A stretch of DNA of 64,000 nt from Gemmatimonadaceae bacterium. GTDB lineage: Bacteria; Gemmatimonadota; Gemmatimonadetes; Gemmatimonadales; Gemmatimonadaceae. Under the pieces are notes generated by a model. The model saw nothing but the letters and a program-made list of their open reading frames with translations, had not been told where the DNA came from and made no database searches. How positions within the stretch are numbered: the first letter of the stretch is position 1; every line of letters begins with the position of its first letter. Made by a program: the position numbers and the translations under genes. The stretch lies in NCBI GenBank assembly GCA_035606695.1, contig DATNEW010000027.1, positions 1-64,000 of the forward strand, given 5' to 3'. Below are positions 49,669-63,277 of the stretch, piece after piece.

Positions 49669-51243
49669 TTATTCCGAAACCTTTTCCAGATCGGTGAGCG
49701 CGGGACCGGTGATCACCTTGCCGTACGGGTCGAATCGCGACCCGTGACACGGACAGTCCCACGTCTTTTCGGCACTGTTCCAGCCCACGATGCACTTGAG
49801 ATGCGTACACACCGCCGAGCATTCGTGGAGCTCTCCGTCGTCGTCGCGATAGGCGGCAATCTTGTGCACGCCACGCCGAACGACGCGGCCCTCGCCCGGC
49901 GTTAGATCGTTCGCGTCAGTCGGGTCGGGCCGCAGGTAATCCTTCACGTACTGCAACGCGACGTCGGCGTTTTCCTTCACGAATTGCTCGATCGGTCGCG
50001 CGCGCAGGGACACGCGGTGCGGATCGTAAAGCGTTTCCCAATCGTTGAGCCGTCCCGTGATCATGTCCGTCAGCAGCATGCCGGCGATGGTGCCGTGCGT
50101 CATGCCCTGTCCGGAATCCCCCGTGGCGATGTACACGTTCTCGGCGCCATCGGGATTGCGGCCGATGAAGGCGATGAAATCGTTCGGCTCGAAGACCTGG
50201 CCGGACCATTTGTAGATGACTTCACGCGCCTCGGGGAATCGCCGCCGCGTCCACTGCTCGAGGCGGTCCCAGCGTTCTTCGGCATCGTCGGCGTGCATGG
50301 TTTTGTGGTCTTCTCCGCCGACGATCAACGCGTCGTACAGTTGGTCGCCCGTGAGGACGCCCGGCGCCGGCTCATCCAACCGCTGCAAGCGCACGTAGTG
50401 GTACGGGTCCGGCGTGTCCCAATAGAGACCCGTCGGAACGGAGCCGCGCGGAACGACGAGCGAAACCACATAGGTGCGATAGGGAGCCTGCTTCGTGTGC
50501 GTGCGGTACATGTCCGTGATCGGCGAGTTCGTGCACACGCACACGGCATCGCAGGTGATGGTGTGTTTGTTGTCCGTCTCGACCTTGCACGGCGCGCCGC
50601 CCTCGACGCCCGCGACATGCGTATCGCAGTAAATGCGGCCGCCGCCGCGGACGATCGCCTGCGCCACGCCGGCGAGGTATTTGAGAATGTGAAACTGTGC
50701 CTGGTTCGGAAAGCGGAGACACGGCCCGCTGTCGAACGACAGATTTGGAATCGCCGGCAGCTTCTGGACGCCGGAAATGCCGGCACGTTGCGCGGCCGCG
50801 AGCTCTTCATCGAGCACGGTTTCGGTGTCGGCGCCGCCGAGAAACAAGTAGCCATCGAGGCGCTCGAAGTCGCAGTCGATTTTCTCGTCGCGCACGATCT
50901 GCTCGATGCGATCGATCGCGGCGCCGTGACTTTGCACGATGCGCCGTGCGCCATCCTCGCCGTGCACGTGCTCGAGCACGTAGATGCGATCGTCCATCGC
51001 GTTGGCGAGATGCGCCGTCGTTCGGCCGGACTCGCCGCCGCCCAGCGGCCCGTCATCGAGGACGATGACCTTCTTTCCAGCCTTGAGAAGCATGTACGCC
51101 GTGGACAACCCGGCGATGCCGGCACCGATGACACATACGTCCGTGCGCGCGTTGCCGCCGAGTGCGGGAAAGGTGGGAACGTCGAACGTTCCCATCCATA
51201 CAGACGCCGTTTCGCCGCCGGGATTGGTGTTCTGCTCTTTCAT
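49669..51243 (-). CDS. FAD-dependent oxidoreductase with C-terminal Rieske domain
   Basis: 524 aa. Rossmann motif [20 protein letters not shown] (about 33-52), a DAO-type FAD domain ([35 protein letters not shown]), then a Rieske [2Fe-2S] domain with CTHLKC and CPCHG as the CxH...CxxH ligand set. Such fusions occur widely in soil bacteria, with unclear substrates. ATG 51243 chosen at the natural N-terminus; upstream sequence lies in the shared promoter region with the epimerase. Confidence 0.93.
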
Positions 51244-51352
51244 GGTTCCGTTTTGGTGGACGTGAGCAGCGAAGGCTTTGCACAGCGCGCACCAGTGCGT
51301 TCCGCCCGAGGCCGCCACTTCCAATGGCCCCGTCCGTACGCGAACCTACGGA

Positions 51353-52273
51353 ATGATCGTCGCCATCACGGGCGCCAACGGGTTCATCGGCCGGCATCTC
51401 TGCGAGCGCTTCGCCGTCGCCGGGTCCGAAGCGCGTCCGGTCGTTCGCGCAGACTACGAGCACGGTCGACTGGCCGAGAAGCTGCGCGGCGCCGATGTGA
51501 TCGTCCACGCGGCGGGCGCGACCCGCGCGGCGACGCGCGCAGGTCTCGTGCGGTCCAACGTCGACCTGACCGCGGCGACGCTGCGCGCGGCCGAAGCGGC
51601 GAAGGTCGAACGATTCGTCTTCGTGTCCTCGCAAGCGGCGGCCGGGCCCGCATCGTCTCGAGACGTTCCCGTCGACGAAGACGACGCGCCCGCGCCGATC
51701 GAGACGTACGGCCGCGCCAAACTCGCGGCGGAGTCCCGTGTGCGATCGTCGGCGATTCCGTGGACGATCGTACGGCCGGCGGCCGTGTACGGCCCGCGCG
51801 ATCGCGACTTTCTCGCGCTGTTCCGATTTGCGAGTCACGGCATCGCGATTCATCCAGGGAACCGCGAGCATTGGATTTCGATCGCGCACGTAACCGATGT
51901 CGCGAACGGAATTTTCTGCGCCGCGACGAGTCCCGCGGCGGAGAGCGGCACGTACTTCATCGCCAACGACGAACCAGTACAGTGGCGTGGGCTGTTTGCA
52001 CTCGCGGCCAACGCAGCAGGTCGCGAGATCGCCGCCGACGCCGAGATACCGTCGGCGGTGGTCGGCCTCGGGGCGGCGCTCGGCGACGTGATCGCGAAGA
52101 TTCGTGGACGCGCCGGATTGCTGACTTCGGAGAAAGTCGCGCTGAGCCGCGCTCCGTTCTGGATCTGCTCGAATGCGCGCGCGCGAAGCGAGCTTGGATT
52201 TGGCCCGGCCGTCTCGCTTCATGACGGGCTCCGCGAGACTTACGTTTGGTACCGGCAGGCCGGTTGGCTCTGA
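51353..52273 (+). CDS. NAD-dependent epimerase/dehydratase (SDR)
   Basis: 306 aa extended SDR. MIVAITGANGFIGRHLCERF is the GxxGxxG cofactor site; the Tyr-x-x-x-Lys catalytic pair is in IETYGRAKLAAE, and VHAAGATRAA and IVRPAAVYGPRD complete the pattern. Substrate unknown: a nucleotide sugar, or possibly the keto-sphinganine step, since a serine palmitoyltransferase operon lies 4 kb away. First of a run of envelope genes. Confidence 0.85.
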   Translation: MIVAITGANGFIGRHLCERFAVAGSEARPVVRADYEHGRLAEKLRGADVIVHAAGATRAATRAGLVRSNVDLTAATLRAAEAAKVERFVFVSSQAAAGPASSRDVPVDEDDAPAPIETYGRAKLAAESRVRSSAIPWTIVRPAAVYGPRDRDFLALFRFASHGIAIHPGNREHWISIAHVTDVANGIFCAATSPAAESGTYFIANDEPVQWRGLFALAANAAGREIAADAEIPSAVVGLGAALGDVIAKIRGRAGLLTSEKVALSRAPFWICSNARARSELGFGPAVSLHDGLRETYVWYRQAGWL

Positions 52274-52307: not shown

Positions 52308-53930
52308 ATGAGATTCACTCGCCGGTGTGCGTGCGGCGCGACCACCATGCTGCTGGGCTTCGCCGCGGCGGGCACGCTGCGCGCGCAAGCATCACCGCCG
52401 ATCGATCCACTCGAACGGGTGTATCGCGACGTGGAGCGGCTCGCCGCGATCGGCGTCATCGACGATGTGGTGCTCGGCCAGCGCCCGTTTTCGCGGCGCG
52501 AAATCATTCGGCTGTTGACCGAAGCGCAGAACAATCTCGCGACGCGCGGGCCGAGCGGCGGTGGTGAATGGATGCGCCAGGTCATCGCGGCGGATCTCGC
52601 GCGCATCGCGTCGTACGGGACGAGCTATCTCGATCGCGCGGACGTGGAGCAGTCGGTCATGGACAGTCCCGACCGACGGGCGCCGAGCGATTTGAACGGC
52701 TCGATCGACGCGCGCATCAATCCGCTGACGTCGTATCGCGAAGGGCGTCCCCTGTATGACGGCTCGACGACGATTGTCGAGACGCATCATTCCGTGAACG
52801 TGGGACGTCATCTCGCCGTATGGGCCGCGCCGATCTTCAGCGTCGGTGCGCGTCGCGGCGACGGTGCGACGAGCCAGCTCGCGCTGCAATCGGGCGGCGC
52901 GCGCGGGGAGTTCGGCAACTTCGTGGTGCAGCTCGCGCGAGATTATGAAATGTTCGGAGAATCGCCGACTGGCGGGTCGGTGGTCTCCACCAACGCGCCC
53001 GCACTCGACGCGTTGACGATCACGAACGATCGGCCGGCGCGGCTCCCGTTTTTCGGCTGGCTCGGGCCCATGCGCGGCACGTTGTTCGTCGCCGATCTTG
53101 GCCCGCATCAGAACTTTCCGCACGCCAAGCTCGCGGGCTGGAAAGTCTCGATTCTGCCACATCCGAACTTCGAGTTTGCGTTGCACGTGGAGAGTCAGAC
53201 GGGGGGCGACGGCGGGCCGGCGGCGAGCTTCGTCGATCGTGCGCTCGACCTGGTGCCGCCAATTGGCGGTCTTCGGAACCTGTTCAGCAACGGCGCCGGC
53301 AATACCGATTTCTCGAACAAGTTCGCGGGCTTCGACGTGCGCCTTCGGATTCCGCGCGCGCGTGGCCTCGACATCTATGGCAATGCCGCGGACGACGACT
53401 TCGACGCGCGCCGGCTGGGGAGCTCGCTGTTTTCCGACGGCGGCGTCGTGGCCGGCGTCTCGATGTCGTGCCTGCTGGAGTGCGGGCGTCTCGGTGTGCG
53501 GGCCGAATATCATCTCACCGGCATTCGTTACTACACCCACACGCAATTCACGAGCGGTTACGCGCTGAACGGCACACTCCTCGGCGACCCGCTCGGTCCG
53601 CGCGGCAACGCCGGCACCGTGGCGGTCGATGGCGAGAGCGAGCGCTTCGGCACACTCGCGTTGGAGGGAGCGTTCGAGATCCGTTCCGGAAATCGCTACG
53701 CCGGCACAGCCGACCAGCCCAACGATCGCAACTTCCATTTCGTGCTGATCGAGCAACGCCCGGGTGAGAAGCGAACGCGTGCGACGCTCACATGGATTCC
53801 GACGCGTCGCGACGCCCGCATTGGCTGGCGCATGAGCGCGGCCGCGGAGCGCGCGATCAACTATGCCTTCGTCGCGGGTCACGATCGCACCAACGCGCTC
53901 GCGCAGATCCAGGTGGAGTTTCGGCCGTGA
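52308..53930 (+). CDS. Wzi-like capsule assembly outer-membrane protein
   Basis: 540 aa. The signal peptide MRFTRRCACGATTMLLGFAA...LRAQ precedes a helical segment (RVYRDVERLAAIGVIDDV, FSRREIIRLLTEAQNN) and a beta-barrel with alternating strands (WAAPIFSVGARRG, FEFALHVESQTGG, FDVRLRIPRARGLDIYG) ending QVEFRP. The plan matches the Wzi/Caps_assemb_Wzi family, which binds capsule or exopolysaccharide at the surface. The next start overlaps its stop (GTGA). Confidence 0.8.
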   Translation: MRFTRRCACGATTMLLGFAAAGTLRAQASPPIDPLERVYRDVERLAAIGVIDDVVLGQRPFSRREIIRLLTEAQNNLATRGPSGGGEWMRQVIAADLARIASYGTSYLDRADVEQSVMDSPDRRAPSDLNGSIDARINPLTSYREGRPLYDGSTTIVETHHSVNVGRHLAVWAAPIFSVGARRGDGATSQLALQSGGARGEFGNFVVQLARDYEMFGESPTGGSVVSTNAPALDALTITNDRPARLPFFGWLGPMRGTLFVADLGPHQNFPHAKLAGWKVSILPHPNFEFALHVESQTGGDGGPAASFVDRALDLVPPIGGLRNLFSNGAGNTDFSNKFAGFDVRLRIPRARGLDIYGNAADDDFDARRLGSSLFSDGGVVAGVSMSCLLECGRLGVRAEYHLTGIRYYTHTQFTSGYALNGTLLGDPLGPRGNAGTVAVDGESERFGTLALEGAFEIRSGNRYAGTADQPNDRNFHFVLIEQRPGEKRTRATLTWIPTRRDARIGWRMSAAAERAINYAFVAGHDRTNALAQIQVEFRP

Positions 53931-54643
53931 CGGCGCACGAAGCGCTCACGGTGGCGTTCACGATCGATCTCGAACCCGATTGTCCGCCGTTTCTTCAGGG
54001 CTTTCGCGGTGTCGAGCATGGATTGCCGAAGCTGCTCGACGCACTCGCCGCGCGCGGCATTCGCGCGACGTTGTTCACGACCGGCGAAGTCGCCGAGCGG
54101 TATCCGTCGCACATCGAGCGACTGGTCGCCGAAGGACACGAGCTCGCGTGTCACGGGATGACGCATCGCGCGTTCACCGAGCTTTCAGCCGATGAAGCGC
54201 GACGCGAAATCGAAGAGTCCGCGCAAATCCTTCGGCGCTTCGCGCCGGTGACGTCGTTTCGCGCGCCGTATCTCAAGTTTCCGGCGGCGTTTTTGCCCAT
54301 TCTCGAGGCGAATGGTTTTCGACTCGATTCCTCGCATGCGCGATACAAACTCGCGTATTATCGCGACCGCGCGACGACGCGACTCACGCGCATTCCCGCG
54401 TCCGTAACGTCATCGGTGCTGCGCATCGCGCGGCCGCTGCGTGCGGCATATCTGTCGCTGCTCTCGTCGCCGGTCGTGCTGTTCGTGCATCCGTGGGAAT
54501 TCGTCGATCTTCGTCACGAGCAACTCCGATTGGACTGCCGCTTCAAGACGGGCGACGTCGCCCTCGCGTGCGTGTCCGAGGTGCTCGACAAGTACCGCGC
54601 ACGCGGCGCGCGCTTCGTGACGATGGGAGAACTGGGCGCGTGA
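53927..54643 (+). CDS. Polysaccharide deacetylase (NodB domain, CE4)
   Basis: 238 aa from GTG overlapping the previous stop. CE4 motif 1 FTIDLEPD (catalytic Asp), motif 2 LACHGMTHRAF (two metal His), motif 3 FRAPYLKFP, and a late motif VVLFVHPWEF. No signal peptide, so it acts in the cytoplasm or on a lipid-linked intermediate. Probably de-N-acetylates a sugar of the surface polysaccharide. The stop overlaps the next start (GTGA). Confidence 0.88.
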   Translation: MTAHEALTVAFTIDLEPDCPPFLQGFRGVEHGLPKLLDALAARGIRATLFTTGEVAERYPSHIERLVAEGHELACHGMTHRAFTELSADEARREIEESAQILRRFAPVTSFRAPYLKFPAAFLPILEANGFRLDSSHARYKLAYYRDRATTRLTRIPASVTSSVLRIARPLRAAYLSLLSSPVVLFVHPWEFVDLRHEQLRLDCRFKTGDVALACVSEVLDKYRARGARFVTMGELGA

Positions 54644-55530
54644 GCACCGCGCGACGATTCGCGGTCGTCGGAGCCTGGATCGTCGCGACGGTCCTCGTGG
54701 TGTTGTGCGCGCGAACCATCGACTGGTCGCACGCCGGCGCGGTCTTCGCGGCCGCGAATCCATGGTGGCTCATTCCCGCGCTCGCCGCCAATGCCGCGGT
54801 GCTGGTGTGCTGGGCGGGTTTCTGGCGCGCGCTCGTTCCGCACGGCGAGCCGCGCGTCACGCTCCGCCGGATGTTCGAGATTGTCTCAACGGCATCGTCG
54901 TTGATGAACACGGTGCCGTTCGGCGGCGGCCACGCCGCAAGCGTCGCACTGTTGAATCGGCGCGCGGGACTCAGTATGCGCGGCGCGCTCGCGGTGCTCG
55001 CGCTCGATCAACTTGGCGAGGGGCTGATCAAGGTCACGATCTTCCTCGGCGTCGCGGCGATGGATCCGTTGCCGACGTGGATGCGCGCGGGCGTCGCAAC
55101 GGCTTCGATCGGCGTCGCGGTGTGGTTGGTCGCGCTGCTGGTGATGTCGCGCCGCGCGCGCGAGCTGAGTCTTCTCAAGGACGCGGGCCGCTCGTTGAGC
55201 GCGTTCGCCTACATCGCGGCGATGAAAGGCATCGAACTATTGGCAATCGTCGCCGTACAGCGCGCGTTCGGCGTCACCATATCGCCGGGCGGCACGCTGC
55301 TCGTGTTGGCGGCGCTCATTCTCGCCACGATGTTGCCGGTTGCTCCGGGCAACCTCGGCACGTACGAAGCCGCTGTGTTTCTGGCGTATCGCTATCTCGG
55401 ACTCGGGCCCGCGCAGGCGTTGAGTCTCGCCATCGTGCAGCATCTCGCGTTCTTGCTGCCTGCCGTTGGCGTCGGCTACTCGTTCGTTTCCGCGCGCACT
55501 TTCTCGCGCAGCGCGATCGCGTCGCGATAA
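54640..55530 (+). CDS. Lysylphosphatidylglycerol synthase TM / UPF0104-type flippase
   Basis: 296 aa, about eight transmembrane helices. FAVVGAWIVATVLVVLCART, SSLMNTVPFGGGHAASVALL (typical conserved loop), LDQLGEGLIKV and MLPVAPGNLGTYEAAVFLAY. Proteins of this family move lipid-linked substrates across the inner membrane. The last 55 bp overlap the convergent glycosyltransferase gene. Confidence 0.85.
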   Translation: MSTARRFAVVGAWIVATVLVVLCARTIDWSHAGAVFAAANPWWLIPALAANAAVLVCWAGFWRALVPHGEPRVTLRRMFEIVSTASSLMNTVPFGGGHAASVALLNRRAGLSMRGALAVLALDQLGEGLIKVTIFLGVAAMDPLPTWMRAGVATASIGVAVWLVALLVMSRRARELSLLKDAGRSLSAFAYIAAMKGIELLAIVAVQRAFGVTISPGGTLLVLAALILATMLPVAPGNLGTYEAAVFLAYRYLGLGPAQALSLAIVQHLAFLLPAVGVGYSFVSARTFSRSAIASR

Positions 55531-56606
55531 ACAGCGAGGTGCGTGTCGATGACGCGCGGCCAATCATGTGGGGGCGCTGTGCGCGCGTTGAATTCAGCCA
55601 TCTCGCGCAGCCGACCGCGATCGCGCGCGAGCGCTGCAACGTGCGCCGCGAGCTCTTCGTCGGATTGCGCCAACAAGCCTTCGCGTCCGTGTGTGATCAG
55701 CTCAGCGACGCCGGACGCCGCCATCGCGACGACCGGCACTCCGGCGCATCGCGCTTCGAGCGCCGCGAGCCCGAACGACTCGCGCACCGTCGGCAACACG
55801 AACACATGACTTTCGGCGAGTAATTCACGAATGCGCGCGCGGCTGCATCGGCCGAGCAGCTCGACGTGCCGCTCGAGGCCGGCCCGCGACACCGCTCGAG
55901 TAAGCGCGCCGAGCTCCGGCCCGTCGCCGACAATTCGCAGTCGAATGGAAAAGTCGTCGCCGAGTCGCGAGCGTACGTCACGCAGCATGCGCACGAGCGC
56001 GAGTGGGCGCTTCTTCGGATTGAGTCGCATCACGCTGATCAACTCGAGCCGGCCGTCGGGGCTCGTCACGGTCGCCGTTCGCCATGCCTTCGCGTCGATG
56101 CCGTTGGACAACACGGAAACTTCGCGCTCTCCCGCGAACGGCTGCACTTCGCCGGCGACGCGCGCGCTCACCGCGGTAAACACCGCCGGCCATCGCGCGG
56201 AGCCGAGCATCGTACCGACTGCGCGCGCGAGGAGCGGTGTTTGCGGGACGATTGAATGGAACGTGAGCACGGTGGGAATGCCGCGCCGCACGCTGTGCAG
56301 CGCGCCGCCGAGTGCCGTGGGCGAAACGATGCTGACGTGGCAGTGCGCGACGTCGGGCGCCTCGTCGGCGATCGCGTGGCCGACGGCGCGAATGCCGGCT
56401 CGTGTGATGAGAAAGCCGAATCGCGGCGCGCGCGGCGCATCGATGCGCCGCACGCGAATGCCGTCACACACCGGCTCGCCGGGCGTGGCCGTGATGGCGA
56501 CGACGTCGTGTCCGGCGTCGACGAGACGTTTCGCCAGATCCTGAAGGTGAAGCTCGATGCCGCCGATCCGCGGGCGATACCAGTCGCAGACCAGCGCGAC
56601 TTTCAC
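55476..56606 (-). CDS. Glycosyltransferase family 4
   Basis: 376 aa, GT-B fold. N-terminal DWYRPRIGGIELHLQDLAKR, VLTFHSIVPQ and SNGIDAKAWR; the nucleotide-sugar site LISVMRLNPKKRPLALVRML and ESFGLAALEARCAGVPVVAM with the EX7E motif. Third gene of the operon GNAT-Spt-GT4 (1-bp gap after spt), which suggests glycosylation of a sphingoid lipid. It overlaps the convergent flippase gene by 55 bp. Confidence 0.92.
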   Translation of the reverse strand: MKVALVCDWYRPRIGGIELHLQDLAKRLVDAGHDVVAITATPGEPVCDGIRVRRIDAPRAPRFGFLITRAGIRAVGHAIADEAPDVAHCHVSIVSPTALGGALHSVRRGIPTVLTFHSIVPQTPLLARAVGTMLGSARWPAVFTAVSARVAGEVQPFAGEREVSVLSNGIDAKAWRTATVTSPDGRLELISVMRLNPKKRPLALVRMLRDVRSRLGDDFSIRLRIVGDGPELGALTRAVSRAGLERHVELLGRCSRARIRELLAESHVFVLPTVRESFGLAALEARCAGVPVVAMAASGVAELITHGREGLLAQSDEELAAHVAALARDRGRLREMAEFNARTAPPHDWPRVIDTHLAVYRDAIALREKVRAETNE

Positions 56607-56607
56607 G

Positions 56608-57789
56608 TCACGCGGCGACCACTAACTTGGCGACGCGCGCGAACGCCTCGAGCACACGCTCGACTTGTTCATCGGAGTGTTCGGCCGTCATCGACACGCG
56701 GAGCCGGCACGAGTTGGCGGCTACCGCCGGTGGCGCGATCGTATGCGTGAAGACCCCGGCGTCGAACAGCGTGCGCCAGACGTGGAGCGTCGGCAGGAGC
56801 TCGCCGATCACGACGGGAATGATCGGCGATTCACCGGGCCCTACCTCGAAGCCCAACGAGCGCAGGCCCTCGGCGACGCGAAGGGTATTGGACCACAGCC
56901 GCTCGCGGCGCTCCGGCTCCTCCGCCATGATGTCGAGCGCCGCCAGCACGCCCGCGACGGACGACGGCGGCATGCTCGCCGTGAAGACGAATGGCCGGCT
57001 ATGGTGCCGCAGCCAGTGAATGACGGACTCCGGACCGGCGATCACGCCGCCGATCGAAGCGAGCGACTTCGAAAACGTGCCCATGATCAAGTCGATCTGA
57101 TCGGAGAGTCCGAAGTGTTCGGCGGTGCCGGCGCCATTCGCTCCGAACACACCGACGGCATGCGCCTCGTCGACGAGCACTGTCGCGTCGTGCGCTTTCG
57201 CGGCGGCGACGATCGCCGGGAGCTCGGCGACGGTGCCTTCCATCGAGAACACACCATCCGTCACGACGAGTTTGCCCTGATGCGCCGGCACCATTCCCAG
57301 CTGGCGGTCGAGCGCCGCCGCGTCATGGTGCGGAAACCGGTGAATCTGACCATACGACAGGCGCGCCGCGTCCACGATGGACGCGTGATTCAAGCGATCG
57401 AGAAACACGTGCTCGTCCCGTCCGACGAGCGAGCCGATGATGCCGAGGTTCGCCTGGTAGCCGGTCGAGTAGACGATGGCGTCCTCCTTGTGGAAGAGCG
57501 CCGCCAGCCGCCGCTCGAGTGTCTCGTGCAGCGCGAGCGTTCCGTTGAGGAGACGACTTCCGGTGGATCCGCTGCCGAACTTCGTCAGCGCCCCTCGTGC
57601 CGCCTCGAGAATGCGCGGATGATGCGTCAGCCCGAGGTAGTTGTTCGAGCCAACCATGATCTTCCACGCACCGCCGATGAGCGCCTCGGTGGCGGTGGAT
57701 TGCTCGATCGGCATGAAGCAGGGATAGATCCCCGCCGCCTGCGTTTCCCGGGCAAGCGTGTAGCCATCGCACTTTTTGAGGATGCTCAT
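56608..57789 (-). CDS. spt: Serine palmitoyltransferase-like alpha-oxoamine synthase
   Basis: 393-aa PLP enzyme. The N-terminal pattern AAGIYPCFMPIEQSTATEAL then IMVGSNNYLGLTHHPRI, and GSGSTGSRLLNGTLALHETL, is closer to bacterial serine palmitoyltransferases than to AONS or KBL. The PLP lysine is in TFSKSLASIGG; the Asp/His pair in VDEAHAVGVFG. Condenses serine with an acyl thioester to give 3-keto-sphinganine in the cytoplasm. Start overlaps the GNAT stop (ATGA). AONS remains possible, but no bio genes are nearby. Confidence 0.82.
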   Translation of the reverse strand: MSILKKCDGYTLARETQAAGIYPCFMPIEQSTATEALIGGAWKIMVGSNNYLGLTHHPRILEAARGALTKFGSGSTGSRLLNGTLALHETLERRLAALFHKEDAIVYSTGYQANLGIIGSLVGRDEHVFLDRLNHASIVDAARLSYGQIHRFPHHDAAALDRQLGMVPAHQGKLVVTDGVFSMEGTVAELPAIVAAAKAHDATVLVDEAHAVGVFGANGAGTAEHFGLSDQIDLIMGTFSKSLASIGGVIAGPESVIHWLRHHSRPFVFTASMPPSSVAGVLAALDIMAEEPERRERLWSNTLRVAEGLRSLGFEVGPGESPIIPVVIGELLPTLHVWRTLFDAGVFTHTIAPPAVAANSCRLRVSMTAEHSDEQVERVLEAFARVAKLVVAA

Positions 57790-58922
57790 CCGACCGCTCG
57801 ATCGTAGATGCGCCAGCGGCGATACTCCGTCGCGCCCATCCCCCGCAAGGGCCGATTGAGCTTGTCGTTATCCTCGAGAATCCACGAGGCTTCTCCGCCG
57901 ATCATCCCCTCCTCCTTGCCGCGGCGGTACATCTCGTCGGCAAACAGTCCGAAGATCCCGCGATTCTGATACTCCGGCTTGGCGCCCAGGATCATGATCC
58001 GGCAGGATTTGAGACGGGTCTTGGCGGCCAGGATCTTGAAAATGCCCGTCGGAAGCAGTCGTCCGTTGCCGATCTGCTTGAACACGCGATGGTAGTCGGG
58101 CACGATGATCATGAAGCCCGCCGGCTCGCCGTTCACTTCCGCCACGAACGCGAACCGCTGCCAGATGAGGTACTTGAGGACCTGCGCCTCGTGCTGGAAG
58201 CTCTCACGCGACATCGGGACGAATCCCCAGTTCGCTTCCCAAGCTGAGTTATAGACCTCCCAGCAGCGCTCGACTTCGGCGCCGAAGTTCTTGAGGTCGA
58301 GATCCCGGAAGACCAGGTTCTTGCCCTTGAACGCGCGCTCGGCGATGTGGCGAACGCGCTCGGGCAGCTCGAACCGGTGCTCGCCTTCCATGCCGAAATA
58401 GTAGGCGATGAGGTCTTTCGCCTTGGTGAATCCCGCGTTCTCGATGAGCGTGGAATAGTACTGCGGATTCCACGTCGTCATGATCATGGGGTGTTGCTCG
58501 AATCCGTCCACGAGCAACCCGCATTCATGATTCGTCGAGGGATTCATCGGCCCGCGCACGGTGTCCAGCCCGCGCGTGCGCAACCAGGACGCGGCCGAAG
58601 CGAACAGTCCGTTCGCCGCTTCCTGATCCTGCCCACACTCGAAGAAGCCGAAGAAGCCGACCTTGTCTTTGTGGAAGTCGTTGTGCGCGCGATTTTCGAT
58701 CGCGGCGATGCGGCCGACGGGCTTGCCGTTGCGCATCGCCAGAAAGAGTTGGCGGTCCGCCGTGCGGTAGAACGGGTTCTTCTTGCTCAACGCATCGGCA
58801 ACCGCGATGCGGAGCGGCGGAACCCACTGTGGGTGATCGACCGGGTTGTAGATCTGCCACGGCAGCCCGATGAACCGGCGCAGATCACGCGAGGAGTCGA
58901 CAGAGACGATATCCAATGCCAC
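57786..58922 (-). CDS. GNAT-like N-acyltransferase (possible ceramide synthase role)
   Basis: 378 aa. WVPPLRIAVADALSKKNPFY, KPVGRIAAIENRAHNDFH, GFFGFFECGQDQEAA and RGPMNPSTNHECGLLVDG belong to a large conserved family with a C-terminal GNAT-type acyl-CoA site (IMILGAKPEYQNRGIFGLF). First gene of the operon that also contains spt and a glycosyltransferase. The context suggests acylation of the sphingoid base, as in bacterial ceramide synthesis. That role is inference. Confidence 0.75.
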   Translation of the reverse strand: MALDIVSVDSSRDLRRFIGLPWQIYNPVDHPQWVPPLRIAVADALSKKNPFYRTADRQLFLAMRNGKPVGRIAAIENRAHNDFHKDKVGFFGFFECGQDQEAANGLFASAASWLRTRGLDTVRGPMNPSTNHECGLLVDGFEQHPMIMTTWNPQYYSTLIENAGFTKAKDLIAYYFGMEGEHRFELPERVRHIAERAFKGKNLVFRDLDLKNFGAEVERCWEVYNSAWEANWGFVPMSRESFQHEAQVLKYLIWQRFAFVAEVNGEPAGFMIIVPDYHRVFKQIGNGRLLPTGIFKILAAKTRLKSCRIMILGAKPEYQNRGIFGLFADEMYRRGKEEGMIGGEASWILEDNDKLNRPLRGMGATEYRRWRIYDRAVG

Positions 58923-59046: not shown

Positions 59047-60105
59047 TTGAGCATTCGAACGCTGCTGGTCACCGGTGGGGCAGGCTTCATCGGATCCGCC
59101 GTCGTGCGTCAGGCGGTGAAGGCCGGTTTCACCGTGTTGAACTACGACAAGCTCACGTACGCCGCGAGCCTGGAGTCGCTGCGCGACGTCGAGGATCACC
59201 CGCTCTACCAGTTCGTGCACGGCGACATCTGCGACGCCGAGCTGGTGCGCCGCACGATCGCCGACTTGCAGCCGGACGCCATCATCCACCTGGCTGCCGA
59301 GTCACACGTCGACCGCTCGATCGACGGGCCCGGCGAGTTCGTGCACACGAACATCCAAGGCACCTTCGTGATGCTGAACGAGGCGCGTCGCTACTGGGCC
59401 GAGCTGTCGGGCGAGGCTCGCGCTCGATTCCGATTCGTGCAGGTGTCCACCGACGAAGTCTTCGGGTCGCTGCATGACGACGGCCTCTTCACCGAGAACT
59501 CGCCATACTCGCCCAACTCGCCGTATTCAGCGAGCAAGGCGGCCGGCGATCACCTCGCGCGCGCGTGGCATGCGACGTACGGCGTGCCGGTCATCGTCAC
59601 CAATTGCTCGAACAACTACGGGCCGTACCAGTTTCCTGAAAAGCTCATCCCGCTCGCGATCCAGCGGGCGCTCGCCGGCGAAGAGATTCCCGTCTATGGC
59701 GACGGTCTGAACGTGCGCGACTGGTTGTACGTCGAGGACCACGCCGCGGGACTGCTCCTCGCCGCGACGCGCGGCACGCCTGGCAGCACCTACCTGTTCG
59801 GTGGCCGCGCGGAGCGGACGAACCTGCAATTGCTCCACACGCTGTGCGCCGCGCTCGACGAGTTCCGTCCCGAAGGCGCTCCGCACGAGCGGCTGAAGTT
59901 CGTGACCGATCGGCCCGGCCACGATCGCCGGTACGCGATCGATCCATCGTCGGCCGAGCACGGTCTGGACTGGAAGGCGGGCCACGACTTCGACTCCGGC
60001 ATGCGCGATACGGTGCGCTGGTATCTCGCCAACCGCGACTGGGCCGAGCGCATTCACCGCGCGCGGTATCGTGGCGAACGTCTGGGCACGGTGGGAATGC
60101 GATGA
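59047..60105 (+). CDS. rfbB: dTDP-glucose 4,6-dehydratase
   Basis: About 352 aa. [20 protein letters not shown] binds NAD+; [58 protein letters not shown] (catalytic Tyr/Lys) and [15 protein letters not shown] are all diagnostic. Second step of dTDP-L-rhamnose synthesis. No ATG fits: TTG 59047 gives the family N-terminus, TTG 59005 is the alternative. The stop overlaps rfbA (ATGA). Confidence 0.95.
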
Positions 60106-60977
60106 AAGGACTGATTCTCGCCGGCGGAGCGGGTACGCGGCTGCATCCGATGACGCGCATCATGAGCAAGCAGCTGCTGCCCGTCTACGACAAGCCGATG
60201 ATCTACTATCCCTTGTCGACGCTGATGCTCGCGGGATTGCGCGACATTCTCATCATCACGACGCCGGAAGACGCACCGCGGTTCTCCGCGCTGCTCGGCG
60301 ACGGATCGGCGTGGGGGATCTGCCTTCACTACGCGGTACAGCCGGCGCCGGAGGGCCTGGCGCAGGCGTTCATCATCGGCCGAGAGTTCATCGGCGGCGA
60401 CGACAGCGCGCTGATCCTGGGCGACAACATCTTCTACTCCGAGAGTTTGTCGGCGCGCCTGCAGACGCTGGCGCGACAGGTATCCGGCGCGACCATTTTC
60501 GGCTATCACGTCCACGATCCCGAGCGCTACGGCGTGGCGGAACTGGACGCCTCAGGCAAGATCATCGGCATCGAGGAGAAGCCGAAGCAGCCCAAGTCGA
60601 ACTTCGCCGTCACCGGGTTGTACTTCTACGACAACGACGTGGTGGACGTCGTGCGCCATCTCAAGCCCTCGGCGCGCGGCGAATTAGAGATTACTGATGT
60701 CAACCGGACGTACCTCGAGCGCGGAACGCTGCGGTTGGAAGTGCTCGGGCGCGGCGCGGCGTGGCTCGACACGGGGACGCCGGAGTCGCTGCACGAGGCC
60801 GCCGCGTTCATTCAGACCATCGAGCGCCGGCAGGGGCTCAAGATCGCGTGTCCGGAAGAGATCGCCTGGCGCATGGGGTTCATCGACGCCGAACGCGTGG
60901 AGCAGCTCGCTCGGCCGATGCGCAATGCCTACGGCGCGTATCTGCTCCAGATGCTGCACCAGTCGCCGCTGGTTTGA
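60102..60977 (+). CDS. rfbA: Glucose-1-phosphate thymidylyltransferase
   Basis: 291 aa. [20 protein letters not shown] is the nucleotide loop; [42 protein letters not shown] and [20 protein letters not shown] are RmlA signatures. First step of dTDP-rhamnose synthesis. Translationally coupled on both sides (ATGA upstream, TGATG downstream). Confidence 0.96.
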
Positions 60978-61528
60978 TGGACGCACGCGCGACGGCGCTC
61001 GACGGGGTGCTCGTCATCGAGCCGAAAGCGTTCCACGACGATCGCGGGTTGTTCTTCGAGGCATGGGAGCTCGAGCGATATGCGGCGCTGGGACTGCCGT
61101 CCGAGTGGCGGCAGGACAACGTCGTGCATTCGCGCCGTGGTGTGTTGCGGGGCATGCACTTTCAGCATCCCAACGGACAGCACAAGCTCGTGTACGCGCT
61201 CGAAGGCGAGATCTTCGACGTCGCGATCGACGTGCGGCGCGGATCGCCGACGTTCGGGCAATGGGTGGGCGAGACGCTGACCGCGGAAAATCGCCGCCAG
61301 CTGTCGGTGGCGCCTGGCTTCGCGCACGGCTATCTCGTCCTGAGCGATTTTGCCGTGGTGGCGTACAAGTGCTCGACGCGGTACGATCCCGCGGCCGAGC
61401 GCGTGATCCGCTGGGACGATCCCGAGCTGGCGATTGCGTGGCCGGGGCGGGCGACGCTCGTGGCGCCCCGCGATGCATCGGCCCGCCGCCTTGGCGAGCT
61501 GGCGCCTCCGGAATTACCAGATTGTTAA
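60977..61528 (+). CDS. rfbC: dTDP-4-dehydrorhamnose 3,5-epimerase
   Basis: 183-aa cupin. FHDDRGLFFEAWE, QDNVVHSRRGVLRGMHFQHP (catalytic His region), GEIFDVAIDVRRGSPTFGQW and APGFAHGYLVLSD are RmlC motifs. The start shares its A with the rfbA stop (TGATG). The C-terminus ends at 61528; a short 25-bp gap leads to rfbD. Confidence 0.95.
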   Translation: MDARATALDGVLVIEPKAFHDDRGLFFEAWELERYAALGLPSEWRQDNVVHSRRGVLRGMHFQHPNGQHKLVYALEGEIFDVAIDVRRGSPTFGQWVGETLTAENRRQLSVAPGFAHGYLVLSDFAVVAYKCSTRYDPAAERVIRWDDPELAIAWPGRATLVAPRDASARRLGELAPPELPDC

Positions 61529-61553
61529 TACTAATTCTGGAAACACCGCCGCC

Positions 61554-62441
61554 GTGAGCCGCCACCGCCCCATCCTGCTGTTCGGCCGCAGCGGTCAGAT
61601 CGGGGACGCGCTGTACGAGCGGCTCGCGGCGCGGCACGACGTCGTCGCGCCGGATCGCGCGAGCGTCGACCTGAACAGCGAGACAGCGGTGCGCGAGGCT
61701 GTGTCGCAACACCAGCCGTGGCTGGTATTGAATGCCGCCGCGTACACCGCCGTAGACGCCGCGGAGTCCGACGAGGCGGCGGCGCATCGGGTAAATGCGG
61801 TCGCTCCGGGCGCGATGGCCGCCGCGGCGCACGCGATCGGCGCGGCGATCGTTCATTTCTCGACCGATTATGTCTTCGACGGAACGAGTGCCACGCCGTA
61901 CGTCGAATCCGACGCACCGGCGCCGCTGGGTGCGTACGGCAGAACGAAGCTCGCGGGCGAACGAGCGGTGCGGCAGTCCGGCGCGCCGCATCTCATTTTC
62001 CGAGCGAGCTGGGTCTACGCGCCACGCGGCCGCAACTTCCTGCTCGCGATTCTGCGCCGCGCGCGCGAGACCGGCCAGCTTCGCGTCGTCGGCGATCAGA
62101 CCGGCGCGCCGACCTCGGCGGCGGCGATCGCGGCTGCCGTGGTCACGATCCTCGAACGCACCGCCTCACCCAACGACATCTCGGCGCATTCCGGCGTGTA
62201 TCACATGACGGCCCGGGGATCGACCACCTGGTTCGACTTTGCGCGCGCGATTCTCGACGGTGCCGGTGTCGGCGCCAACGTCGAATCCATCAGCACGCAC
62301 GAATTCGGAGCGGCCGCGGCGCGCCCGCGGTACTCGTTGCTCGACAACACCAAGCTTCAAACGACATTCGGACTCGAGCTGCCTGACTGGCGTGTGCAGC
62401 TCGCGGATGTGCTGCGCGAGCTTGGACTCGCCGCAACGTGA
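61554..62441 (+). CDS. rfbD: dTDP-4-dehydrorhamnose reductase
   Basis: 295-aa SDR from GTG. ILLFGRSGQIGDALYERLA, VLNAAAYTAVDAAESDEAAA, FSTDYVFDGTSATPYVE and APLGAYGRTKLAGERAV (Tyr/Lys) define RmlD. Completes dTDP-L-rhamnose (order rfbB-rfbA-rfbC-rfbD, all coupled or closely spaced). The stop overlaps the PAP2 gene start (GTGA). Confidence 0.95.
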   Translation: MSRHRPILLFGRSGQIGDALYERLAARHDVVAPDRASVDLNSETAVREAVSQHQPWLVLNAAAYTAVDAAESDEAAAHRVNAVAPGAMAAAAHAIGAAIVHFSTDYVFDGTSATPYVESDAPAPLGAYGRTKLAGERAVRQSGAPHLIFRASWVYAPRGRNFLLAILRRARETGQLRVVGDQTGAPTSAAAIAAAVVTILERTASPNDISAHSGVYHMTARGSTTWFDFARAILDGAGVGANVESISTHEFGAAAARPRYSLLDNTKLQTTFGLELPDWRVQLADVLRELGLAAT

Positions 62442-63277
62442 CCGTGTCCGGCGCGCGCGACACGAATGCGCCGGCGCCGCTCGCGTTGCGCATTCTCGCC
62501 GTCTATCTCGCCGCGACCGTCGTCCCGGCGATTCGTGGCGGCGTACGCGGCGAGGGTGCGTGGCCGTTCGCCGTGGCGCACGTCGTTTTGCTCGCGATCT
62601 CGTTGATGCTCATCTCCAGGCGCGCGAACAGCTCCGCCGCGGCGTGGCTTCCGCTGCTGGCGGTGCCCGTGTTGTACGCGTCGCTTCCCACGCTGATCGC
62701 CGGGCTCGACGGCCGGATGCACGATGGTGTCGTGCAGGGTTGGGAGGGGGGCGTCTTCGGGCAATCGCCCGCCGCGACACTCGCCGGCCGCTATCCGTAT
62801 CGTGGTATTAGCGAGCTCTTACATCTCGCGTACCTGTCCTACTACCCCGTCATCTACCTGCCGCCGCTGCTGCTGTTTCTGCGCGGCCAGCGGCCGGCGT
62901 TTGACCGAACCACAGCCGCGCTCGTCACTACCTATGCGGTGTGCTTCGCGGTATTCGTGGTCTTTCCGGTGGAAGGACCGCGCTTCGCGTGGGCGCCGCC
63001 CGCCGGCATTCCAGATGGTCCGGTGCGCCGATTCACCTTGCGTCTTCTCGCGGCAGGCTCGTCGCGCGGTGCTGCCTTTCCGTCGTCCCATGTCGCCGTC
63101 GCGGTGACGCAGGCCGTAGTGGCGCTTCGGTGCCAACGAGCCGTGGGCATCGTGGTGTCGGTCTGCGCCGCGCTCCTTTCGCTCGGCGCGGTGTACGGAG
63201 GGTTCCACTACGGCATCGACGTCCTGGCCGGCGCCGCTGTCGGCCTGCTGATAGGCTCTGGATTCCTATTGCGTTGA
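62438..63277 (+). CDS. PAP2-family membrane phosphatase
   Basis: 279 aa, multiple transmembrane helices. The phosphatase motifs are GAAFPSSHVAVAV (His in SxxxH) and GGFHYGIDVLAG (second His and Asp); the first motif is less clear, near FPVEGPRFAW. It may dephosphorylate undecaprenyl diphosphate or a lipid phosphate. Coupled to rfbD by GTGA, so its product likely serves the rhamnose-containing polysaccharide pathway. Confidence 0.88.
   Translation: MTVSGARDTNAPAPLALRILAVYLAATVVPAIRGGVRGEGAWPFAVAHVVLLAISLMLISRRANSSAAAWLPLLAVPVLYASLPTLIAGLDGRMHDGVVQGWEGGVFGQSPAATLAGRYPYRGISELLHLAYLSYYPVIYLPPLLLFLRGQRPAFDRTTAALVTTYAVCFAVFVVFPVEGPRFAWAPPAGIPDGPVRRFTLRLLAAGSSRGAAFPSSHVAVAVTQAVVALRCQRAVGIVVSVCAALLSLGAVYGGFHYGIDVLAGAAVGLLIGSGFLLR

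Follow-up and report, generated by a model that had tools for sequence, protein, structure and literature searches.

Does a Gemmatimonadaceae bacterium carry, in three adjoining genes, a route to a glycosylated sphingolipid? The question is raised by a stretch of 64,000 nucleotides (hereafter, the window; bases 1 to 64000 of contig C27, DATNEW010000027.1) from a genome of 5.9 Mb that is 99% complete (assembly GCA_035606695.1). On its minus strand lie a GNAT-fold N-acyltransferase of the bCerS/CerS (YghO/CC_1154) family (57786-58922; 378 amino acids [aa], GTG start; a weak Acetyltransf_1 match, 1.7e-05), an alpha-oxoamine synthase of the serine palmitoyltransferase (Spt) clade (56608-57789; 393 aa, ATG start; Aminotran_1_2, 9.9e-59), and a GT4-family glycosyltransferase (55476-56606; 376 aa, GTG start; Glycos_transf_1, 1.8e-29; Glyco_transf_4, 5.3e-21). 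The end of the GNAT gene and the start of the synthase gene share 4 bases (57786-57789), and the GT4 start follows the synthase stop after one intervening base. The initial annotation had proposed these three open reading frames (ORFs) as a glycosphingolipid operon; coordinates, sequence, and Pfam domains agree on the frames and their spacing, and the minus-strand operon is confirmed. The extended short-chain dehydrogenase/reductase (SDR), a predicted CerR-like ceramide/3-keto reductase that the annotation had placed at 51353-52273, is likewise present, on the plus strand (Epimerase, 1.8e-26; open frame from 51278).

Our answer is that this is a real, conserved sphingolipid locus, in a new arrangement of known enzyme families, and that sister genera hold an unusual fused counterpart. 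Ceramides are lipids familiar chiefly from the membranes of animals and plants. It is highly probable that it makes a ceramide-type sphingolipid backbone, and for the complete route from Spt through GNAT and SDR to a glycosylated ceramide, we estimate a probability of about 0.6. Along this route, Spt would condense serine and a fatty acyl thioester to 3-ketosphinganine, the GNAT would N-acylate this product with a second acyl chain, as bCerS does in Caulobacter, the SDR would reduce the 3-keto group, and the GT4 enzyme would add a sugar to the ceramide, a step suggested by its linkage and by the GT4 ceramide galactosyltransferase of Bacteroides fragilis. More speculatively, a PAP2_3 protein, a deacetylase, a flippase-like protein, and a Wzi-like barrel encoded nearby could finish, flip, and display the lipid. 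Sphingolipid synthesis in Gemmatimonadota gains from this locus a genetic basis that is open to testing. A literature search that excluded subscription papers and supplements found no paper on sphingolipids made by this phylum, and the string "Gemmatimon" is absent from the main text of PMC11334938. Ceramides rise in dry soil, where their bacterial makers are unclear (PMC9969633).

Against NCBIfam models, the synthase scored 471.8 (NF047600), 408.6 (NF047599), and 346.5 (NF047603) bits for Spt, compared with 393.4 bits for bioF and 370.6 and 314.6 bits for the KBL models, i.e., both top Spt models (NF047600 and NF047599) outscored bioF. The best PDB match was the SPT of Sphingobacterium multivorum (5e-110), ahead of the Sphingomonas SPT and of all BioF, KBL, and ALAS entries, and identity to Bacteroidota Spt (S. 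multivorum SPT and Bacteroides Spt) was 45 to 48%. In a maximum likelihood tree of 72 rows, made from ORFs of 350 to 480 aa with HemA and CqsA left out, the window synthase had the protein of genome G080 as its sister (100/99). Both belonged to a 25-row Gemmatimonadota Spt clade (100/97), with Bacteroidota Spt and S. multivorum SPT on a nearby branch. Escherichia coli BioF and KBL, the BioF-like and KBL-like paralogues from the same genome, and one Aquificota row formed a separate branch (100/94). The closest congener (locus L086) is absent from this tree because its ORF falls outside the length range. The window synthase keeps each of the nine S. multivorum SPT residues compared that take part in catalysis or contact serine (N52, S81, H138, S185, D210, H213, T241, S243, and K244), the roles of which are described in PMC10196870. 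The lysine motif, GTFSKSLASIGG (GTFSKS motif), is the same as in Bacteroides Spt, while KBL and BioF have TLGKA or TFGKG. The initial annotation had named AONS (BioF) and KBL as the competing identities; the tree and the lysine motif rule out both, and we assign the synthase to the Spt clade, with a predicted Spt activity. Three other synthases of the genome are distinct, namely, a KBL-like protein on contig C9, a BioF-like protein on C44, and one with an adjacent SDR on C28. This last synthase (G000, L008:5223-7402) is directly followed by an extended SDR with a 4-bp overlap and falls in neither the BioF/KBL branch nor the Spt clade.

The choice of substrate is not readable from the tree, and the use of alanine and, as a hypothesis, of other amino acids is discussed in PMC11334938. 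A synthase taking alanine, glycine, or cysteate would lead, by the same steps, to 1-deoxysphingolipid- or sulfonolipid-like products. We consider this very improbable, given that among 25 positions compared with S. multivorum SPT just six differ (F13, Y27, A79, F83, L249, and M271), none of them catalytic, and that the PDB match to SPT is far ahead of that to cysteate-C-fatty acyltransferase (5e-110 versus 8e-65).

The GNAT is 29.8% identical to E. coli YghO over 100% of the query and 31 to 41% identical to GNATs found within Spt/CerR clusters. A tblastn search of a plasmid collection gave matches in 44 records. In the six cluster records that were opened (E. coli [YghO], Sphingomonas, Roseomonas, Rubrobacter, Aureispira, and Streptomyces), the GNAT lay within a few kilobases of Spt and of an epimerase- or NAD(P)-binding-type reductase, and the E. 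coli cluster also held an acyl carrier protein (ACP) and a fatty acyl-AMP ligase (FAAL). In a seventh record, from Bacteroides finegoldii, the GNAT was apart from Spt. A published list gives yghO as the counterpart of Caulobacter CC_1154, a gene required for dihydroceramide (PMC9386255). The AlphaFold model of the window GNAT (pLDDT of 88; 27 sequences) had tandem GNATs as its best PDB folds, which is a generic result, with glucosamine N-acetyltransferases among them, and the sequence itself had no match below an E value of 0.04 among solved structures. Overall, the agreement with the known bacterial ceramide synthase family, by way of YghO and the cluster GNATs, is good, and we place the GNAT in the bCerS/CerS (YghO/CC_1154) family, tied to CC_1154 through YghO and with a predicted ceramide synthase activity.

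For the reductase step, we built a CerR profile from five CerR-type proteins of Spt/GNAT clusters. The window SDR was the top match of the whole genome (227.3 bits; next, 168.9 bits), and it was 33 to 34% identical to the CerR-type proteins of the Streptomyces and Rubrobacter clusters, so that it compares well with CerR. Applied to a selection of 20 genomes, the profile gave best scores of 211 to 292 bits in eight that have Spt or a fused synthase (G000, G080, G025, G071, G092, G087, G016, and G026) and of 180 or less in the other 12. In the SDR tree, which included 32 cluster CerR rows as well as own-genome rows with N-terminal extensions (L078, L082, and L083), the window SDR grouped with the SDRs of related modules (100/99). 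CerR is periplasmic in Caulobacter (PMC11087976); inspection by eye, with no prediction program run, revealed no obvious signal peptide in the window SDR. This protein is the best CerR candidate of the genome, and its reductase activity is predicted.

The pairing of synthase and GNAT was then followed in 150 Gemmatimonadota genomes, 80 of which had a GNAT match. A close Spt, defined by an identity of ≥52% across the region matched, was present in 57 (one of them a fragment at a contig edge). Spt and GNAT were adjacent on one strand in 54 of the 57, the exceptions being G143 and G076, in which Spt lies at the end of a contig, and G043. In 52 of these 54 pairs Spt preceded GNAT; the GNAT came first only in the window and in G080. 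A CerR-type SDR accompanied both in 23 of 40 fetched stretches, plus many loci of other phyla. The nearest named relative among the loci is L086, from a Gemmatimonadaceae metagenome-assembled genome (GNAT identity of 73%) that is of the same genus (G150, identical in sequence to G156). In another genome of the same genus, G167 (L194), the whole block recurs in the order FAD oxidoreductase, SDR, Wzi, deacetylase, flippase, and then GT4-Spt-GNAT and PAP2_3. Together, the adjacency in 54 of 57 genomes and the complete block in a same-genus genome indicate more than chance.

The GT4 enzyme probably acts on ceramide. The genome has a single match to it at an E value of ≤1e-25, and its best solved relatives are BshA and, more weakly, PimA. 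At the same threshold, 9 of 14 chosen genomes gave a match, with a copy within ca. 12 kb of the GNAT in all but G150 (8/9). At an E value of ≤1e-40, it was found in 8 of 59 family genomes. In seven of these (G000, G167, G157, G080, G163, G071, and G025), Spt, GNAT, or a fused synthase is adjacent to it or close by; the exception is G156 (the G150 sequence). In G150, the GT4 gene sits on another contig beside a different SDR (L186). In G163 (L197), two tandem GT4 copies lie beside Spt, PAP2_3, and an SDR, and no GNAT was seen in the 19.9-kb stretch. Of the glycosphingolipid operon first proposed, the ceramide part is supported and GT4 is genetically linked to the pathway, while the "glyco" part stays a prediction.

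The initial annotation had overlooked several other genes of what appears to be a wider module. Downstream of the SDR on the plus strand are a Wzi-like outer-membrane barrel protein (52308-53930; Caps_assemb_Wzi, 1.2e-36; start placed by eye at a signal-peptide-like N terminus within a frame open from 52173), with homologues in L086, L187, L190, and L194; a polysaccharide deacetylase (53927-54643; Polysacc_deac_1, 3.2e-21); and a flippase-like membrane protein (LPG_synthase_TM; 54640-55530; PF03706, 1.2e-33), the 3' end of which overlaps that of GT4 convergently. The last two genes are linked in the module loci. A PAP2_3 membrane phosphatase/phosphotransferase-like protein (62438-63277, plus strand; PF14378, 4e-18; aligned in seven module copies) is a candidate head-group enzyme; its gene adjoins GNAT in L134, L194, and L196 and is separated from it in the window by the rml genes. 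A PAP2_3 profile matched only LpxE (9.1e-05) and YodM (0.0015) in the PDB, a set in which the presence of inositol phosphorylceramide (IPC) synthase was unchecked. The inositol-phosphate synthase family was found in 20 of 20 genomes searched and so does not discriminate; PAP2_3 as an IPC synthase is a guess. A FAD oxidoreductase with a C-terminal Rieske domain (49669-51324) is kept beside the module in L086 and L194. Between the GNAT and PAP2_3 genes, dTDP-rhamnose-type genes (59050-62441; rmlB tested and the others read from sequence) are followed by a Wza/Wzz/Wzy/Wzx/NeuB-type polysaccharide export locus (window; L192 and L193). Loci L142, L143, L164, and L165 hold a bCerS-like GNAT with GT4, PAP2_3, flippase-like, and/or deacetylase genes, in genomes that have no close Spt, fused synthase, or CerR-range SDR.

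A number of observations weigh against the route to glycosylated ceramide. The synthase missed all curated NCBIfam equivalog cutoffs (640 for NF047600, 500 for NF047599, and 670 for NF047603) and was therefore assigned to the wider Spt clade only and to none of the three subfamilies. The deep nodes of the SDR tree do not split CerR from other extended SDRs, and the best CerR score in G150 is 180 bits despite its GNAT-Spt pair. The locus of that congener (L086) holds GNAT-Spt and flippase-deacetylase-Wzi but neither GT4 nor SDR. The polysaccharide locus starts just downstream, so that GT4 could serve polysaccharide synthesis. Furthermore, 24 of the 80 GNAT-bearing genomes have no close Spt, and four f5 genomes (G103, G085, G116, and G118) combine GNAT, GT4, and module genes without Spt, a fused synthase, or a CerR-range SDR. 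This suggests that some of the module genes can function in the absence of a sphingoid base and that, in some genomes, GNAT and GT4 may act on another amine.

One alternative is that Spt, GNAT, and CerR make ceramide while GT4 and its neighbors serve a surface polysaccharide, leaving the sphingolipid unglycosylated or with a phospho head group. The rmlB gene and the export locus that directly follow are consistent with this division of labor, as are the GNAT-Spt pair without adjacent GT4 in G150 and the conserved presence of PAP2_3 as a neighbor; polysaccharide loci often contain Wzi and deacetylase domains. Yet the 1-bp spacing of GT4 from Spt, the lack of a close GT4 paralogue in the genome, and the position of GT4 near Spt, GNAT, or a fused synthase in seven of the eight family genomes that hold it make this explanation unlikely.

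The combinations lacking Spt bear on a second alternative, in which the GNAT/GT4/deacetylase module makes an N-acylated amino-sugar glycolipid and Spt is a mere neighbor. GT4 would add an N-acetylhexosamine, the deacetylase would free the amine, and the GNAT would acylate it, roles analogous to those of NodC, NodB, and NodA, respectively. The deacetylase is indeed linked to GNAT and GT4 without Spt (L143, L164, and L165), and the glucosamine N-acetyltransferases are, among other tandem GNATs, near folds of the GNAT. We hold this explanation to be quite improbable in view of the 4-bp Spt-GNAT overlap in the window, the company that GNAT keeps with Spt in 54 of 57 genomes, and the tie of the GNAT family to dihydroceramide synthesis (PMC9386255). 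A module-type CerR-like SDR also occurs in the neighborhood in G000, G167, G157, G163, G071, G025, and G087, a point limited by its location elsewhere in the genome in G080 and G092 and by the failure to find one in G150.

Within the route to glycosylated ceramide that we favor, the window Spt and GNAT have different histories, another feature missed initially. In the GNAT tree, the window protein falls together with its L086 and G080 counterparts and with GNATs beside fusions of FAAL, ACP, and alpha-oxoamine synthase (AOS) in G025, G071, G092, and G087 (97/89), and this group joins next with the GNATs of f5 genomes without close Spt (100/100). It falls outside a branch of 26 rows (96/60) containing the GNATs of Gemmatimonadota Spt-bCerS-CerR triads, whereas the Spt clade that holds the window Spt consists mostly of triad members. 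Given this disagreement between trees, the most straightforward interpretation is that a GNAT/GT4/PAP2/deacetylase/flippase module, relatives of which use a FAAL-ACP-synthase fusion, was joined by a stand-alone Spt, although losses or transfers in other orders could give the same result.

The fusions lie next to bCerS-like GNATs at L092:6703-10014 (G087), L135:606-5549 (G025, with acyl-CoA dehydrogenase domains), L136:4108-7760 (G071, in two frames), and L137:4528-8925 (G092, by similarity); their AMP-binding, carrier, and oxoamine synthase domains were identified with Pfam in L092, L135, and L136. In the synthase tree, the fused proteins and one protein of G001 make up a separate AOS clade (100/100). 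A search for the fused AOS domain in 15 of the 24 GNAT genomes without close Spt yielded four fusions, the related stand-alone protein of G001, and nothing close in the other 10. The FAAL-carrier part had no match in the genome of the window at an E value of ≤1e-20, while six of eight genomes searched gave one. Our literature search returned no paper combining fatty acyl-AMP ligase, oxoamine synthase, and acyl carrier protein. Such a fusion is a possible one-protein first step of sphingolipid synthesis. As a broader and tentative proposal, which we regard as rather doubtful, Gemmatimonadaceae could possess a surface-glycosphingolipid module (GNAT, GT4, PAP2_3, deacetylase, flippase-like, Wzi-like, and CerR-like SDR) with an interchangeable entry enzyme. 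In the window lineage, this enzyme would be a stand-alone Spt from the ordinary Spt-bCerS-CerR operon of the phylum; in sister genera, it would be a FAAL-(acyl-CoA dehydrogenase)-ACP-oxoamine synthase megaenzyme that would handle its own fatty acid from activation and modification through carriage to condensation. Such a module would yield ceramide of a novel class, glycosylated, perhaps phospho-linked, and displayed on the cell surface. If true, the swap of a stand-alone Spt for a FAAL-ACP-synthase fusion in modules of one type would illustrate how bacteria can alter the supply of acyl chains for making sphingolipids.

Among known systems, that of Caulobacter crescentus (spt [CC_1162], cerR [CC_1164], cerS/bCerS [CC_1154], acpR, and aasR) resembles the window in having Spt, a CerR-like SDR, and an N-acyltransferase whose family, by way of YghO, is that of the window GNAT, a likeness drawn without direct comparison to the Caulobacter sequences. 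Unlike in Caulobacter, no fatty acyl-AMP ligase/carrier pair lies beside the window genes, the order is GNAT-Spt-GT4, and the reductase is on the other strand. Bacteroidota Spt (S. multivorum and Bacteroides) forms a clade near that of the window enzyme and has the same GTFSKS motif, but Spt and GNAT, neighbors in the window, are not adjacent in the Parabacteroides and Bacteroides records that were opened. For the sugar step, BF9343_3149 of B. fragilis is a GT4 alpha-galactosylceramide synthase that acts on ceramide (PMC9692976), likened here to the window enzyme by family and without sequence comparison, and Sgt1/Sgt2 of Caulobacter, for which ceramide glycosylation is defined genetically (PMC6445935), are likened to it by its predicted function, again without sequence comparison. 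A nonclassic acyl supply to an AOS with SPT activity is known from Pseudomonas SgaAB, which makes sphinganines (PMC12134224) and is relevant to the fused relatives; it consists of an iterative polyketide synthase and a separate AOS protein, neither of which is in the window.

Closer at hand, the Gemmatimonadaceae FAAL-ACP-AOS loci (L092 and L135 to L137) carry a GNAT of the same clade as that of the window, and L135/L187 and L136/L190 also carry relatives of the GT4, PAP2_3, deacetylase, flippase, Wzi, and SDR genes; their synthase, fused to a fatty acyl-AMP ligase and a carrier, belongs to an AOS clade other than that of the window Spt. The Spt-bCerS-CerR triads of other Gemmatimonadota and other phyla comprise the same three enzyme families, and the Gemmatimonadota Spt clade includes the window enzyme, but the triads of this phylum are mostly Spt first, whereas the window is GNAT first, with a GNAT of another clade.

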